Positions 15,653 through 48,081 of a stretch of DNA of 58,634 nucleotides are shown piece after piece; the stretch's first letter is position 1; every line of letters begins with the position of its first letter. The DNA is from Chloroflexia bacterium. GTDB taxonomy: Bacteria; Chloroflexota; Chloroflexia; Thermomicrobiales; CFX8. The translations under genes were made by a program, and so were the position numbers. The stretch lies in assembly GCA_030431755.1 (NCBI GenBank), contig JAUIIK010000012.1, forward strand, positions 1-58,634. Direction: 5' to 3'. A model generated the notes under the pieces. The model was given only the letters and a program-made list of their open reading frames with translations, made no database searches and was not told the DNA's origin.

Positions 15653-15892
15653 TGGCCGCTCTGCTTTGTGGAGGTACAGCGAGAGTCACTGTTGCAGCCG
15701 TGGCGCGTAGAGCCCGCGTCTCCACTCCCAATCCAGATGCGACAAATCGGCTACTGTCACATGCGGGCGGGTTGCGGCGATTAACTGACGGAGACAGCGA
15801 GGAGGTCCGCAGTCAACAGAGCGCAGCTGGCGGACATTCGACGGGCAGAGACGCGGGCGCGGTCGGAGTGGAGCGACGAGCAGATCGTCGCG

Positions 15893-16414
15893 ATGACGCT
15901 CGACGACCCGGCCTACTTCCGGCTGCTCTACCAACGCTACGCCGATCGCATCTACTGGTACGCGACGGCCCGGACCGGGTCGGAGACGGTCGCCGACGAC
16001 GTTGTGAGCGAGTCGATGCTGGCGGCGCTGGAGCACCTGGAGCGGTGGGACCCCGAGCGTGGGACCTTCGCCGCCTGGCTCTTCGTCATCGCCCAGCGCA
16101 AGCTGATCGACCAGCAGCGCGCGCACCAGCGTATCCGTCGGCTGGTTGGCCGGATTCAGCAGCTGCGGCAACCGCAACCGGAGTCCGACGCGCTCGAACA
16201 GATGCTGGCCGAGGAGCAGGCGTTGGAGGTGCGTGACGCGGTCGCGCTACTGCCGCGCAAAGACCGCGAAGTTATCGCGCTCCGCTTCGCCGCCGGGTTG
16301 AGCGGCGAGGAAATCGCCGCCGTCCTCGGCATCAGTCATGTCGCTGCCCGCAAGCGTCTGAGCCGCGCTCAGCACCGCTTGGCCCGGCAGCTAGAGGCGT
16401 CACGCGATGCCTGA
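15893..16414 (+). CDS. RNA polymerase ECF sigma factor
   Basis: The protein is 173 residues. Region 2 is seen in AYFRLLYQRYADRIYWYATARTG and the WLFVIAQRKLID stretch. Region 4 is seen in LLPRKDREVIALRFAAGLSGEEIAAVLGI with the helix-turn-helix and the KRLSRAQHRLA recognition helix. ATG 15893 lacks a clear ribosome site; the frame is open upstream to 15788 and the residues just before the ATG (SEWSDEQIVA) look sigma-like, so the true start may be upstream with a non-standard codon. It overlaps the next gene, a membrane protein, by 8 bases, suggesting a sigma and regulator pair. Confidence 0.85.
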   Translation: MTLDDPAYFRLLYQRYADRIYWYATARTGSETVADDVVSESMLAALEHLERWDPERGTFAAWLFVIAQRKLIDQQRAHQRIRRLVGRIQQLRQPQPESDALEQMLAEEQALEVRDAVALLPRKDREVIALRFAAGLSGEEIAAVLGISHVAARKRLSRAQHRLARQLEASRDA

Positions 16415-17606
16415 GCACATGCCAGACAACGAACGTATTAGCCGCGAGCTCCAGCGCAAACGTCTCACCTTCATCCAGCGGCGCAGGCACCTCGACCGGA
16501 TCGAGCGCCTGATCGCCGAGGGGCGCGATGAGCTGGATCGCCCGGAGCGCCCGGGCCGGGCCGAGTTCGGCGTCCTCATAGCGACGCTCCTCGTCCTCTT
16601 TGCCGGCCTCGCACTGTGGTCCTTGCTGCCCACTAGCGCCCCGTCGGACTCGCTAGGCGATTCTGGCATGGCTGGTAACGCCAGTGCCGCGCTGCCGACG
16701 GCCCGGCGTGCCACGATCGTTGCCGATGTCCCGCCGATTGTCACTCCTGGCTACGACGCCGAGAGCGGGATCTGCCATGTCACGCCGCTGGCGGTGAATG
16801 TCGATCCGGTCGTGCCGCGTGACGATGTGCGCTATCTGCGCTGGTACGGCAGTCATGAGGCCGGTTTGTGGGCCGCGCCCCAGGACTTCGGCGCGTTCTT
16901 GCCGACCGCCTGGCCCCAGCCGGCAAGCCTCTGGTTTGCTGGCGCGGAGACGCCTGTCCGTTGGTACGGCGGCCGCTCGACGATCATGGTCGAACGGGCC
17001 CGGCTTGACGGTTACACGCGGTTCAGGCCCGATCTCGCCGCCTGGGCTTATGGGGGCGGGCAGGCGAGCTCGATCACCATCCCGGAGCCGGGCTGCTGGC
17101 AGCTGACCGCGACGGCTGGTGCTCAGGAGCTCACTATTGTCATCGAAGTTCTGCCGCTCGACCGGCGGCCGGACATCGCCATCGCCGAAAGCTACGTCGC
17201 CGCCCGGCCCTACGCGATTCCCTCGACCTGCCCGGTGACGGCACGCTCGCGGCCGGAGCAACGCGGCGCCGGCCACCACTGGCTACAGTCCGGCGACATC
17301 CGGGCGGAGTTCGCGGACCTGCTCTTCGCTGACGAGGAGCAGAGTGTCGGTGTCGTCGGCGCGGATGTCGTCGATGGTCTGACGCTGACCGCGCGCAAGC
17401 TGAACACTGACACTGACGAAGCAGAATTGGCGCTCACTCCGCTCTGGAATTCGGACGCCCGGCTCGCCCTCTTCAGCATCCCCAGCGACGGCTGCTGGGA
17501 GCTGGAGCTGGAGACGCCGACAACGACGGTGACGTTCGTCGTCTACGTCTACCCGGGCGATTGCAAGCCAGAGCTACGCGACGGGGCGTTCGTTTCTGAA
17601 TGCTGA
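16407..17606 (+). CDS. Single-pass membrane protein, possible anti-sigma regulator
   Basis: The 399-residue protein has a basic, coiled cytoplasmic N-terminus (RISRELQRKRLTFIQRRRHL), one membrane helix at about 54-75 (FGVLIATLLVLFAGLALWSLL) and a large outside part. The outside part holds two similar units with LRWYGSHEAGLWAAPQDFG, SLWFAG and an IxEPGCWxL core; the second unit has IPSDGCWELELE. The 8-base overlap with the ECF sigma gene argues that it controls the sigma factor, but no classical zinc anti-sigma motif is present. The next gene encodes a lipoprotein with the same outside units. Function is inferred only from position. Confidence 0.7.
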   Translation: MPEHMPDNERISRELQRKRLTFIQRRRHLDRIERLIAEGRDELDRPERPGRAEFGVLIATLLVLFAGLALWSLLPTSAPSDSLGDSGMAGNASAALPTARRATIVADVPPIVTPGYDAESGICHVTPLAVNVDPVVPRDDVRYLRWYGSHEAGLWAAPQDFGAFLPTAWPQPASLWFAGAETPVRWYGGRSTIMVERARLDGYTRFRPDLAAWAYGGGQASSITIPEPGCWQLTATAGAQELTIVIEVLPLDRRPDIAIAESYVAARPYAIPSTCPVTARSRPEQRGAGHHWLQSGDIRAEFADLLFADEEQSVGVVGADVVDGLTLTARKLNTDTDEAELALTPLWNSDARLALFSIPSDGCWELELETPTTTVTFVVYVYPGDCKPELRDGAFVSEC

Positions 17607-17645
17607 GCAGCGCGTGACTAACCCCGGCGGACAGGAGTCGCAGCC

Positions 17646-18743
17646 ATGAGCCGAGCGCATCCCAGAATTCACAGCCGCGCGCTGCTCGTCGTCGTCATTG
17701 GAGCGCTGATGCTCTCAGCCTGCGGGACAATCCTGGACGCTGGCGACGCCCCGCCCGACGAGCCGGATCTGGTCAGCGCCGCCCGGGCGACACTGACCTA
17801 CCGCGAGACGCAGCGCGAGCCGACGCCGACCTACACACCACGCCCCGCCCCGGCCACCTTCACGCCAACGACGGTCGAGGTTGCCAGCACCTGTGAGGTG
17901 GATCAGCCGATCGCCGGTCTGCCACCGGGCCTGCCGCCCGGCGGGCCAAGCACCCACCTCTGGTACGGGAGTGAGGACGCCGGGCTCTGGGCCTCGCCGA
18001 TGGACTACGGCGTCTTCCTGGCTGACGAACTGGATCTCCCGTCGAGTCTCTGGTTTGCCGGCGAGGTGACCCCGGTGCTCTGGTTTGGCGTGTCGCAGCC
18101 GCTTGAGGTGACCGGCGAGCAGCTCGACGGCGACGCTATGCTGGAACCCGTGACAGGGCGCAATGCTCTGCTGGAGAATCAGTGGACCGATGTCTTGATC
18201 CCTGAGCCTGGTTGTTGGCGATTGACGGGCGCGACGGCGTCGGGCTCACTAACGCTGACGGTCGAGGCGCTGCCAGTCAACCGGCGGGCGGACTTCCAGC
18301 TTTCGCAAATGCTGTCCGATGCCCGGCCCTACCCGCCGCCGCCAACCTGCCCGGCGACGCCCTTCGTTGGACCTGATGCCCGAGGAGAAGGAGAGTTTGC
18401 CCACTACTGGCTCGAAGCGGATGGTATCTCGGCTGATGTCTTCGGCTGGTTCGTGGCCGGCGAGCAGCAAGGCATGGGCATCTACGGGGAAGGTGTCATC
18501 GACGAGCTGACCGCCACGCTACGGCGAGTGGATCAGGGCGTTGGGAGCGAAACGACGGTGTCGACGGTTATCCTGAACTCCGAAGGACGCCTGGCCCGCT
18601 TTGTGCTGCCCGAGCCAGGCTGTTGGGAGCTGGAGTTCGAGACGGCCGCGTCGAGCGCTACTTTCACGCTCTATGTCTATCCGGCAGCCTGTAGCCCGGA
18701 GCTGATCGAGGGCGCCTATCGCGTATCCTGTGAGGAGCCGTAG
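17646..18743 (+). CDS. Lipoprotein paralogous to the sigma-linked membrane protein
   Basis: The protein is 365 residues. The N-terminus has a lipoprotein signal with the lipobox LSAC, so it should be acylated at Cys26 or so and anchored outside. A proline- and threonine-rich spacer follows, then two units matching those of the previous gene: LWYGSEDAGLWASPMDYGVFL, SLWFAGEVTPVLWFG, PEPGCWRLTG and later PEPGCWELEFE. The conserved EPGCW tetrads and spaced cysteines suggest disulfide-stabilised beta domains. It probably belongs to the same operon as the sigma factor, and could be its signal input or a regulon member. No enzyme motif was seen. Confidence 0.72.
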   Translation: MSRAHPRIHSRALLVVVIGALMLSACGTILDAGDAPPDEPDLVSAARATLTYRETQREPTPTYTPRPAPATFTPTTVEVASTCEVDQPIAGLPPGLPPGGPSTHLWYGSEDAGLWASPMDYGVFLADELDLPSSLWFAGEVTPVLWFGVSQPLEVTGEQLDGDAMLEPVTGRNALLENQWTDVLIPEPGCWRLTGATASGSLTLTVEALPVNRRADFQLSQMLSDARPYPPPPTCPATPFVGPDARGEGEFAHYWLEADGISADVFGWFVAGEQQGMGIYGEGVIDELTATLRRVDQGVGSETTVSTVILNSEGRLARFVLPEPGCWELEFETAASSATFTLYVYPAACSPELIEGAYRVSCEEP

Positions 18744-18775
18744 ACCTCGCGCCAATACGCTAGTGGAGCCCTCCG

Positions 18776-19084
18776 ATGGATATGCGCCGCATCAATGCCC
18801 GGAACTACGCCGTCTATCTCCAGAGACGAGTCGAGGATCTCGGCGACCCTGCCCGGCCGACGCCGAAGTGGACCGACATCGACCGTGACGCCGTGCGCGA
18901 GCTCATCCGCGAGTTCCGGCGGCTGGAGCGGGTTCACGATCTCGCGGTAGAGCAGCTGACTGCCCACGGCATCGAGGTCCCGCAGGTGTTCGACGAGGAA
19001 GGCGACCCCGCGGAATCCGCCTGGATGACCGTCCCGATGCCGCCCCGCGACACCGGCTCCAGCTGGTGGCAGTTTTGGCGCTGA
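18776..19084 (+). CDS. Small hypothetical protein
   Basis: The protein is 102 residues with GGAG about 8 bases before the ATG. It is charged and mostly helical in the first 60 residues (AVRELIREFRRLERVHDLAVEQL), has an acidic middle and ends in WWQFWR. No family was recognised. It follows the lipoprotein gene by 32 bases and may be the last gene of the sigma-factor operon. No membrane segment or signal peptide is present. Confidence 0.6.
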   Translation: MDMRRINARNYAVYLQRRVEDLGDPARPTPKWTDIDRDAVRELIREFRRLERVHDLAVEQLTAHGIEVPQVFDEEGDPAESAWMTVPMPPRDTGSSWWQFWR

Positions 19085-46699: not shown

Positions 46700-47497
46700 T
46701 TAGTCAGTCATCGAGGCCGCAATTTCCAGGGCCGCTTCGAGGCTCAGGGCGGATTCGAGGCGCAGCGTCAGGTCGCCTGCCTGCCAGACGAGGGTGTTGC
46801 CGGCGAAACGTAGCGACTCGGCGACCGGTTCGCCATCCGCGCCGAGCATCCAAAGCGTGTGGCTCTCGCCCGAGATCCAGTACGCGTCGTTGCCGTTGAC
46901 GTCGAGGACGGTGACGGCAACGCCTTCCGGTGCGCCTTTCGCATACGCTTCGGGATTCAGCGTGCCCAGGAACTGGGTGAGTAACGCGCCGACGCCGGTT
47001 TCCTCGGCCTCCGGGAGTCCGTCCCGGGCGCGATAGACGAAGGTGACCGCTCCACCAGTCATGCCGCTGTCGAGGTAGATCTCGTCGGGCTCATCCAATC
47101 CCGAGGTTGCGGGGCTCACGATGCTGAAGGTGACGTCTCCCGCCGCTTCGTCCAGTGAGACCGGCGTGCCGAGTTTAAACGGCTCCCCGAGCCTGGGTTG
47201 TTCGTCGGGGGCGCTGGCGACAAGCGTGAGGCCGGGGAGGTTGAACCACTCGGCGATTGTTGTGCGGGATGTGCTGTAGATTAGCGCCGTGCCGGCAACG
47301 AGCAGCGCGATGACGGCTGCCGCGACGACCCAGCGACGTGGTAGCTCAAGGACGCGGCTCCGGCTGGCGACGCGCGCGTCGAGCTGCCGGCGCACGGCGC
47401 TTGCAATGTCCGGTGTCTCCGGATACTGCACGCGCGCGCCGAGCGACTCTAGCGCCGCGCCGAGCTCCCGATCCGTCTGGCCGAAGCTGTCGCTCAC
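46700..47497 (-). CDS. Probable anti-sigma factor (membrane protein)
   Basis: The 265-residue protein has a cytoplasmic N-terminus of about 55 residues, one helix (RRWVVAAAVIALLVAGTALIY) and a beta-rich outside domain of the DUF4367 style (DAYWISGESHTLWMLGADGE). Its ATG overlaps the stop of the ECF sigma gene by 4 bases, the usual sigma/anti-sigma arrangement. No zinc-finger HxxxCxxC motif is present. Confidence 0.75.
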   Translation of the reverse strand: MSDSFGQTDRELGAALESLGARVQYPETPDIASAVRRQLDARVASRSRVLELPRRWVVAAAVIALLVAGTALIYSTSRTTIAEWFNLPGLTLVASAPDEQPRLGEPFKLGTPVSLDEAAGDVTFSIVSPATSGLDEPDEIYLDSGMTGGAVTFVYRARDGLPEAEETGVGALLTQFLGTLNPEAYAKGAPEGVAVTVLDVNGNDAYWISGESHTLWMLGADGEPVAESLRFAGNTLVWQAGDLTLRLESALSLEAALEIAASMTD

Positions 47498-48081
47498 AGC
47501 TGCTCTCCCTCCAATTTCCCAAGCTCAGTCATCTGAGCGCGGAGTTTGCCGAGCGCGCGGGACAGACGCGACTTGACCGTCCCGGCCGGGCAGGCCAGGG
47601 CTTCGGCCATCTCGGCCTCCGACATATCAAAGAAGTAGCGGTATGCGATGACGAGGCGGTCGCGCTCCGTCAGGGCCTCCAGCGCTGTGAGTAGCTCCTG
47701 TTGCCGTTCGCTACCCAAGGCAACAGTTTCGGGCGATGGGGCCGCGTCACCCGGGAGCTGTGCCCCGGCGGCGTGCAGCGCCAAGCGGGCACGACGGCCG
47801 GCCGAGCGCCGCCGGTTGCGAGCTTCGTTGGTGACGATGCGCAGCAGCCAGGGCCGGAAGGGCGCGCCGGGCCGGAAGCGGTCGAGCGCGTAGTAGGCGT
47901 TGATGAAGCCCACCTGGACTGCTTCCTCGGCCTCGCCGGCGTCCCCGGCGACCAGATAGGCGGCACGGAAAGCTACATCCTGGTGTTGTCGCACCAGTCT
48001 CTCGTAGGCGTCGGCGTCACCTCGCCGGGCAAGCTCGACGAGCTGGCTTTCCTCCAATGGCCGGCCCTCCATGGAGCGCAC
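47494..48081 (-). CDS. RNA polymerase ECF sigma factor
   Basis: The 195-residue protein has region 2 (LVRQHQDVAFRAAYLVAGDA, then FRPWLLRIVTNEARNRRR) and region 4 (LTERDRLVIAYRYFFDMSEA, EALACPAGTVKSRLSRALGK). It is of the SigW/SigE-like ECF type. Either ATG 48081 or 48072 may be the start. It is coupled to the downstream membrane protein, which probably holds it inactive until an envelope signal arrives. Confidence 0.9.
   Translation of the reverse strand: MRSMEGRPLEESQLVELARRGDADAYERLVRQHQDVAFRAAYLVAGDAGEAEEAVQVGFINAYYALDRFRPGAPFRPWLLRIVTNEARNRRRSAGRRARLALHAAGAQLPGDAAPSPETVALGSERQQELLTALEALTERDRLVIAYRYFFDMSEAEMAEALACPAGTVKSRLSRALGKLRAQMTELGKLEGEQL

Follow-up and report, generated by a model that had tools for sequence, protein, structure and literature searches.

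A probable extracytoplasmic function sigma factor/membrane anti-sigma operon with putative exchangeable immunoglobulin-like sensor units and a duplicated lipoprotein in a Chloroflexia bacterium

We analyzed a 58,634-nucleotide (nt) stretch of DNA from a Chloroflexia bacterium (GenBank assembly GCA_030431755.1, contig JAUIIK010000012.1; the whole stretch is hereafter the window), which corresponds to contig C171 in a draft genome of 5.15 Mb and carries an extracytoplasmic function (ECF) sigma factor gene followed by genes for a single-pass membrane protein (P0002) and a lipoprotein (P0003). With reasonable confidence, we read these genes as an autoregulated operon of an ECF sigma factor and a membrane anti-sigma factor, in which the outer pair of units of P0002 would act as the sensor and P0003 as a feedback or co-sensing partner. 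In the proposed mechanism, P0002 would hold the sigma factor at the membrane via a short N-terminal helical segment, and a signal from the envelope or from outside would be sensed by its outer pair of immunoglobulin (Ig)-like units, an exchangeable sensor. This signal would relieve the inhibition, probably through proteolysis in steps, after which the sigma factor, now free, would transcribe its own operon. P0003, expressed from the same promoter, might bind the same ligand or P0002 itself. The features of the locus are the following:

15755 to 15781, forward strand: promoter-like motif TGTCAC-N17-CGAT, common to the sigma relatives (upstream-region comparison)
15800 to 15805, forward strand: AGGAGG, likely ribosome-binding site of the sigma gene (read from the sequence; perfect match)
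15812 to 16414, forward strand: ECF sigma factor gene (Pfam/NCBIfam and relatives; start uncertain, conventional ATG at 15893)
16407 to 17606, forward strand: P0002, single-pass membrane protein, likely cognate anti-sigma factor
16407 to 16571, forward strand: P0002 inner N-terminal segment, likely sigma-binding part (~55 residues, predicted helix 7-43)
16572 to 16628, forward strand: P0002 membrane-spanning segment, residues 56-74 (hydropathy 2.56; helix 51-71 in a low-confidence model)
16773 to 17165, forward strand: P0002 sensor-type unit 1 (own-unit profile 3.7e-40, the unit itself being in the profile)
17229 to 17606, forward strand: P0002 unit 2 with two-cysteine tail (own-unit profile; structure model)
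17646 to 18743, forward strand: P0003, lipoprotein paralogue of the P0002 outer part (lipobox Cys at 17721-17723)
17892 to 18284, forward strand: P0003 unit 1 (own-unit profile)
18348 to 18731, forward strand: P0003 unit 2 (own-unit profile)
18776 to 19084, forward strand: small open reading frame (ORF), 32 nt behind P0003; membership in the module doubtful

The first gene encodes an ECF sigma factor with sigma-70 regions 2 and 4, matching Sigma70_r2 (PF04542; 3.6e-17, 62.4 bits against a cut-off of 24) and Sigma70_r4_2 (PF08281; 2.6e-11, 43.4 bits, cut-off 25.7) in Pfam and TIGR02937 in NCBIfam (95.1 bits, cut-off 42.9). Its open frame runs from 15788 to 16414 on the forward strand. A preliminary description of this DNA had placed the module at 15893 to 19084; its account of the three genes is confirmed, but the span also takes in a fourth, small ORF, and the sigma gene probably starts ~80 nt upstream of 15893, near 15812. 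We favor the earlier start because the residues encoded upstream of the ATG at 15893 (WSDEQIVAMTLDD) align with the N-termini of sigma relatives, the AGGAGG sequence occupies 15800-15805 and the promoter-like motif runs up to 15781. A GTC at 15812 is well spaced behind AGGAGG, and since no ATG, GTG or TTG occurs in the sigma frame near this position, the exact start is uncertain.

P0002 is most likely the cognate anti-sigma factor. Its start overlaps the end of the sigma gene by 8 nt, its sole hydrophobic stretch by hydropathy comprises residues 56-74, and its layout (adjacency to a sigma gene, a group-specific inner segment, one membrane span and an outer sensor) is that of a membrane anti-sigma factor. 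The overlap with a single-pass, two-unit membrane protein was thus recovered as first described, as was the lack of a known anti-sigma motif in both this protein and the lipoprotein: P0002 has no Pfam or NCBIfam family at E values up to 10, and P0003 returns only sub-threshold noise in these libraries. The Hx3Cx2C motif is absent from the inner domain of P0002, in which the first cysteine comes no earlier than residue 123. The full-length model is poor (mean predicted local distance difference test score, pLDDT, 42.7), and its outer part was for that reason used for no claim; within it the inner segment is predicted as one helix, residues 7-43, at pLDDT ~70. In its short inner segment without a zinc motif, its single span and its co-encoding with a sigma factor, P0002 resembles anti-sigma factors of the CnrY type (class II), CnrY being linked to its sigma gene and of this membrane topology. 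It differs in that a profile compared with PDB chains gives no sequence match and in that the outer part is unrelated in kind, the CnrY system sensing nickel and cobalt. According to the available part of PMC7406223, Hx3Cx2C is the zinc motif of class I (ASDI) domains, which average 101 residues (vs ~55 here). The same source puts the share of putative anti-sigma factors with a class I domain at only ~36% and describes class II domains as short and two-helical. The missing motif is therefore no argument against an anti-sigma role, and the short length of the segment fits class II.

The genome encodes seven units in exactly four proteins, as found by profile, and three of the four lie directly behind an ECF sigma gene: P0002 (two units), a protein on contig C222 (two units, locus L020) and one on contig C45 (one unit, locus L021). 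A search of the class with the three own sigma factors returned five other genes at 180-205 bits, spread over three other genomes, with the next gene at 122. In a tree of 32 sigma rows the own three and these five relatives group together (93/84), the interior of the group being drawn open and C171 and C222 being sisters (98/91). Each of the five relatives has a same-strand, single-pass membrane protein directly downstream (by hydropathy for four, by eye for the fifth), overlapping by 8 nt in locus L189 as in the window, and the unit is absent from all five partners. A profile of the inner segments of loci L190-L193 scores 16.6 bits on C45, 9.6 on C171 (P0002) and 9.1 on C222, values reached by 0, 0 and 1 of 1000 shuffles, compared with at most 2.3 bits for ten inner segments from partners of other sigma groups; the L189 segment scores 9.2 against a seven-member profile (3 of 1000 shuffles reach this score). 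Judged by these comparisons, the close sigma relatives present a sensor swap, with a related inner segment joined to a different outer domain. An inner part that tracks the sigma factor and an outer part that is exchanged are as expected of an anti-sigma factor with a replaceable sensor. A genome-collection scan with the sigma alignment, which yielded 47 loci mostly from other phyla, was not used. RsgI proteins likewise have interchangeable outer sensor domains, although sigma-I is not an ECF factor, the inner domain is a known one and the sensors are for carbohydrates. In Clostridium thermocellum, nine RsgI anti-sigma factors sense different substrates (available part of PMC12203970), a further point of likeness.

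The arrangement of a sigma gene followed by a unit membrane protein also recurs elsewhere, in 7 of 56 further unit loci (L064, L068, L073, L221, L227, L236 and L239), 19 of the 56 having come from a search of the class and 37 from one of the phylum. With an assumed chance of 0.65-1.5% per gene, a rate taken from 31 sigma matches in the 5.15 Mb genome, 0.4-0.8 such loci would be expected; the binomial tail of 8.6e-8 to 2.1e-5 is rough, because two of the seven loci were judged by reading. Of 65 unit frames, the script placed 9 immediately after a sigma gene; with L073 and L236 added on reading and one locus removed, the final tally is the three own loci plus these seven. The locus removed is L217, its sigma frame having 316 residues and its unit frame no membrane span that could be seen. 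Also uncounted were L074, which looks like an eighth case with broken frames, L070, where the unit gene precedes the sigma gene, and L226, where the unit is in the third gene; in L071, L076, L216 and L244 fewer than 700 nt are available ahead of the unit frame, and a sigma gene could have been missed. The sigma factors of the unit loci fall in separate parts of the 32-row tree, and the outer parts of the unit membrane proteins vary, including one beta-propeller, one LysM-containing region and one sortase-like stretch (the propeller and LysM families come from the Pfam/NCBIfam scan with assignment to proteins by eye, the sortase from inspection by eye alone). Its repeated presence next to sigma factors of only distant relationship makes the domain look like a sensor that can be exchanged. 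The linkage proposed for checking in related genomes is thus conserved between the sigma and membrane-protein genes but does not extend to the lipoprotein gene: in 0 of the 9 other sigma-membrane-unit loci (two own, seven elsewhere) is the unit membrane protein directly followed by another unit protein, and the three-gene order is not conserved. Its only partial echo is L226 (3439-5282), where a sigma gene and a membrane protein with an unrelated outer part are followed by a one-unit lipoprotein.

Several of these loci have further features of their own. In L073 (5244-8385) the anti-sigma-like membrane protein behind the sigma gene carries the sortase-like stretch (by eye) and then two units, and in L064 (7581-12998) three sigma-like frames lie on one strand within ~5.5 kb, the first overlapping a two-unit membrane protein. 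The frame behind the sigma gene of L221 (4333-7332) has 1000 residues, with an inner segment, a membrane span, one unit and a LysM-like stretch, and in L021 (5014-7626) the gene of the one-unit membrane protein behind the sigma gene has that of an ABC-type solute-binding protein (by eye) as its immediate downstream neighbor. The window itself contains, on the reverse strand at 46700-48081, a second ECF sigma gene (48081-47494) that overlaps the gene of a unit-less membrane partner (47497-46700); this is an ordinary ECF pair of another sigma group.

The units are ~110-130 residues long, and all seven of the own genome have in common a first cysteine and P..GCW. The tag EPGCW, under which the two envelope proteins P0002 and P0003 were first labeled, occurs in three of their four units; in the second unit of P0002 its place is taken by PSDGCW. 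By profile, related units were identified in at least 13 of 158 genomes of the class and at least 31 of 400 of the phylum, the own genome counted; these are lower bounds, since the genome searches scored a subset of their candidates, with maxima of 28, 20 and 11 per genome. The alignment of 17 units comprised the seven own units and 10 of 23 printed unit rows, the 13 others having no clear first cysteine or belonging to stand-alone proteins. Many unit proteins are short, with sequences suggestive of secretion or lipid anchoring. No Pfam or NCBIfam family is common to more than one of the 30 proteins scanned (26 unit proteins and four unit-less partners), unit profiles compared with PDB sequences gave a best E value of 0.099, a tblastn search of plasmids with one unit gave no match, and the unit motif strings were not found in the literature searched. 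The sensor family thus appears to be undescribed in Pfam and NCBIfam. Structure prediction of the shared domain, recommended in the preliminary description, yielded for the second unit of P0002 an all-beta sandwich (pLDDT 69.6) whose best structural match is CrdA (9ll2; VIA-align Z 10.9, root-mean-square deviation 2.2, 93 of 108 aligned), followed by FetP and filamin repeats at Z 8.5 and below; the best Foldseek matches of the model are mixed Ig-type folds. On the strength of this model we read the unit as an Ig-like sandwich. CrdA, FetP and Tp34 are copper-binding proteins of Ig/cupredoxin-like type; copper sensing, as an argument from fold likeness alone, was set aside, and we derive no ligand from the model.

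P0003 begins 39 nt behind P0002 and has a signal peptide and, at Cys26, the sequence LSAC, which we take to be a lipobox. That the next gene encodes a lipoprotein with the same two units had been noted before, and the sharing of a sensor domain between the two proteins can now be traced to duplication. The first units of P0002 and P0003 are 40% identical and the second units 42%; in the unit tree the first units group together (96/92), as do the second units (99/98), and because they pair in this manner, the tree indicates a single duplication of the whole two-unit outer region of P0002. A stretch in front of the units is also held in common (ALPTARRATIV in P0002, DLVSAARATLT in P0003 and KLVAVAAATLT in the C222 protein), which fits descent of P0003 from a membrane protein with a replaced front end. 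A genome-collection scan with P0003 found no relative. The second units (17229-17606 and 18348-18743) end in a tail with two extra cysteines, YP..C....C, which by eye is also present in C222, L065 and L238, hinting at an extra disulfide in one subgroup of units. The small ORF behind P0003 (18776-19084) was set aside as a module member: it has no Pfam or NCBIfam family, and its lone relative, in 1 other of 158 genomes, has no sigma gene beside it within the 2.1 kb examined.

Autoregulation of the operon is suggested by the motif TGTNAC-N16/17-CGWW, which resembles known ECF promoters and precedes 7 of the 8 sigma genes in the group; this count is post hoc, because the pattern was noticed in the same sequences. 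It begins 37-54 nt before the called start in six sigma genes; the eighth gene, that of L191, is without the motif in the 178 nt available upstream. The pattern is also present ahead of 2 of 21 other sigma genes, and random 300-nt stretches and shuffles contain it at rates of 0.0095 and 0.007, respectively. Release by proteolysis is assumed by analogy with known systems, and the genome has site-2-protease-type genes (PF02163, 10 matches).

A number of results weigh against this reading of the operon. The inner segment of P0002 has no match to a known anti-sigma family in Pfam or NCBIfam or to a solved chain, its profile finding only chance-level ribosomal and designed proteins among PDB chains. 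Conservation of the inner segment within the group is weak: in leave-one-out comparisons 0-16 of 1000 shuffles reach the score, P0002 being the weakest member (16). At 45 of the 56 unit loci there is no sigma gene close by, and the unit is therefore not specific to sensors. Two of the loci tallied, L073 and L236, were counted from their translations; the open frames of the script ran through the sigma gene. The promoter-like motif was found by eye and then tested on the same regions, and an exact-word scan of the upstream regions gave nothing common to three or more. PF02163 says nothing specific, because it is present in 14 of 14 control genomes.

Three alternatives apply to P0003 alone and leave the core of the reading intact. 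P0003 could be a co-regulator in the manner of RseB, bound to the outer part of P0002 and protecting it from cleavage up to the point at which a lipid or envelope signal displaces it; we regard this as possible but doubtful. In its favor is L226, where the membrane protein in front of the unit lipoprotein has an unrelated outer part, so that such lipoproteins may work with partners that have no units; this is, however, a single other locus. RseB, moreover, is not known to be paralogous to the outer part of RseA, whereas here the third protein is a lipoprotein and a paralogue of the anti-sigma factor's own outer region. We know of no domain that the lipoprotein CseA of Streptomyces coelicolor has in common with the system of its operon. 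The RpoE-RseA-RseB system likewise comprises a sigma factor, a membrane anti-sigma factor and an extra outer-side protein encoded in the operon (available part of PMC8103513). The SigE-CseA operon also encodes a lipoprotein, the loss of which raises sigE promoter activity (available part of PMC6767563), although that operon has no anti-sigma factor and acts through a two-component system. As operon-encoded outer proteins that, according to these two sources, lower sigma output, RseB and CseA are precedents for such a role of P0003. Comparably doubtful is that P0003 is an output, that is, an envelope protein of the sigma regulon that has its fold in common with the sensor because units were recruited from a large secreted pool. 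The prevalence of unit loci away from sigma genes and the many unit proteins read as secreted or lipid-anchored would agree with this, but the nearest relative of P0003 is P0002 and not a free-standing unit protein. Some RsgI sensor domains also occur in the enzymes. In C. thermocellum, RsgI anti-sigma factors regulate cellulosome genes (available part of PMC12203970), a further point for an output.

Slightly below both the shielding and the output role we rank a decoy, which seems rather unlikely: made in step with sigma activity, P0003 would soak up ligand or replace P0002 in homotypic contact and so damp the response. The preliminary description had suggested ligand swapping or a decoy; the decoy considered here is that idea confined to negative feedback. 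The identical order of the two units in both proteins after a single duplication, the 39-nt gap and the common promoter-like motif upstream of the operon speak for it; the absence of the three-gene order from the nine other loci counted speaks against it, and ligand sharing is not assured because the paralogues are only ~40% identical. Marginally more unlikely still is the further idea that the operon makes a receptor, P0002, together with a lipid-anchored duplicate of its outer half, so that each activation raises a competitor that sets the dose and duration of the response; in the literature searched, judged by titles and abstract starts, no case matching decoy-receptor logic was found for ECF systems. 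That P0002 is an envelope protein merely encoded behind a sigma gene is improbable, for although it has no known anti-sigma motif in Pfam or NCBIfam and an inner segment of only ~55 residues, that segment tracks the sigma group as the outer part varies, the two genes overlap, and the class I share and short two-helix class II domains given in the available part of PMC7406223 leave room for an anti-sigma factor of this kind.

Under the favored reading of an anti-sigma operon with an exchangeable sensor, an apparently undescribed and widely scattered secreted domain, the PxxGCW unit, is tied to a likely function, that of sensing for ECF anti-sigma factors. The locus and its relatives also offer a clean case of sensor swap, in which sister genomes keep the sigma group and the inner segment and differ in the outer part. 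The duplicated lipoprotein, in turn, allows a direct test of feedback through a copied half of the receptor.

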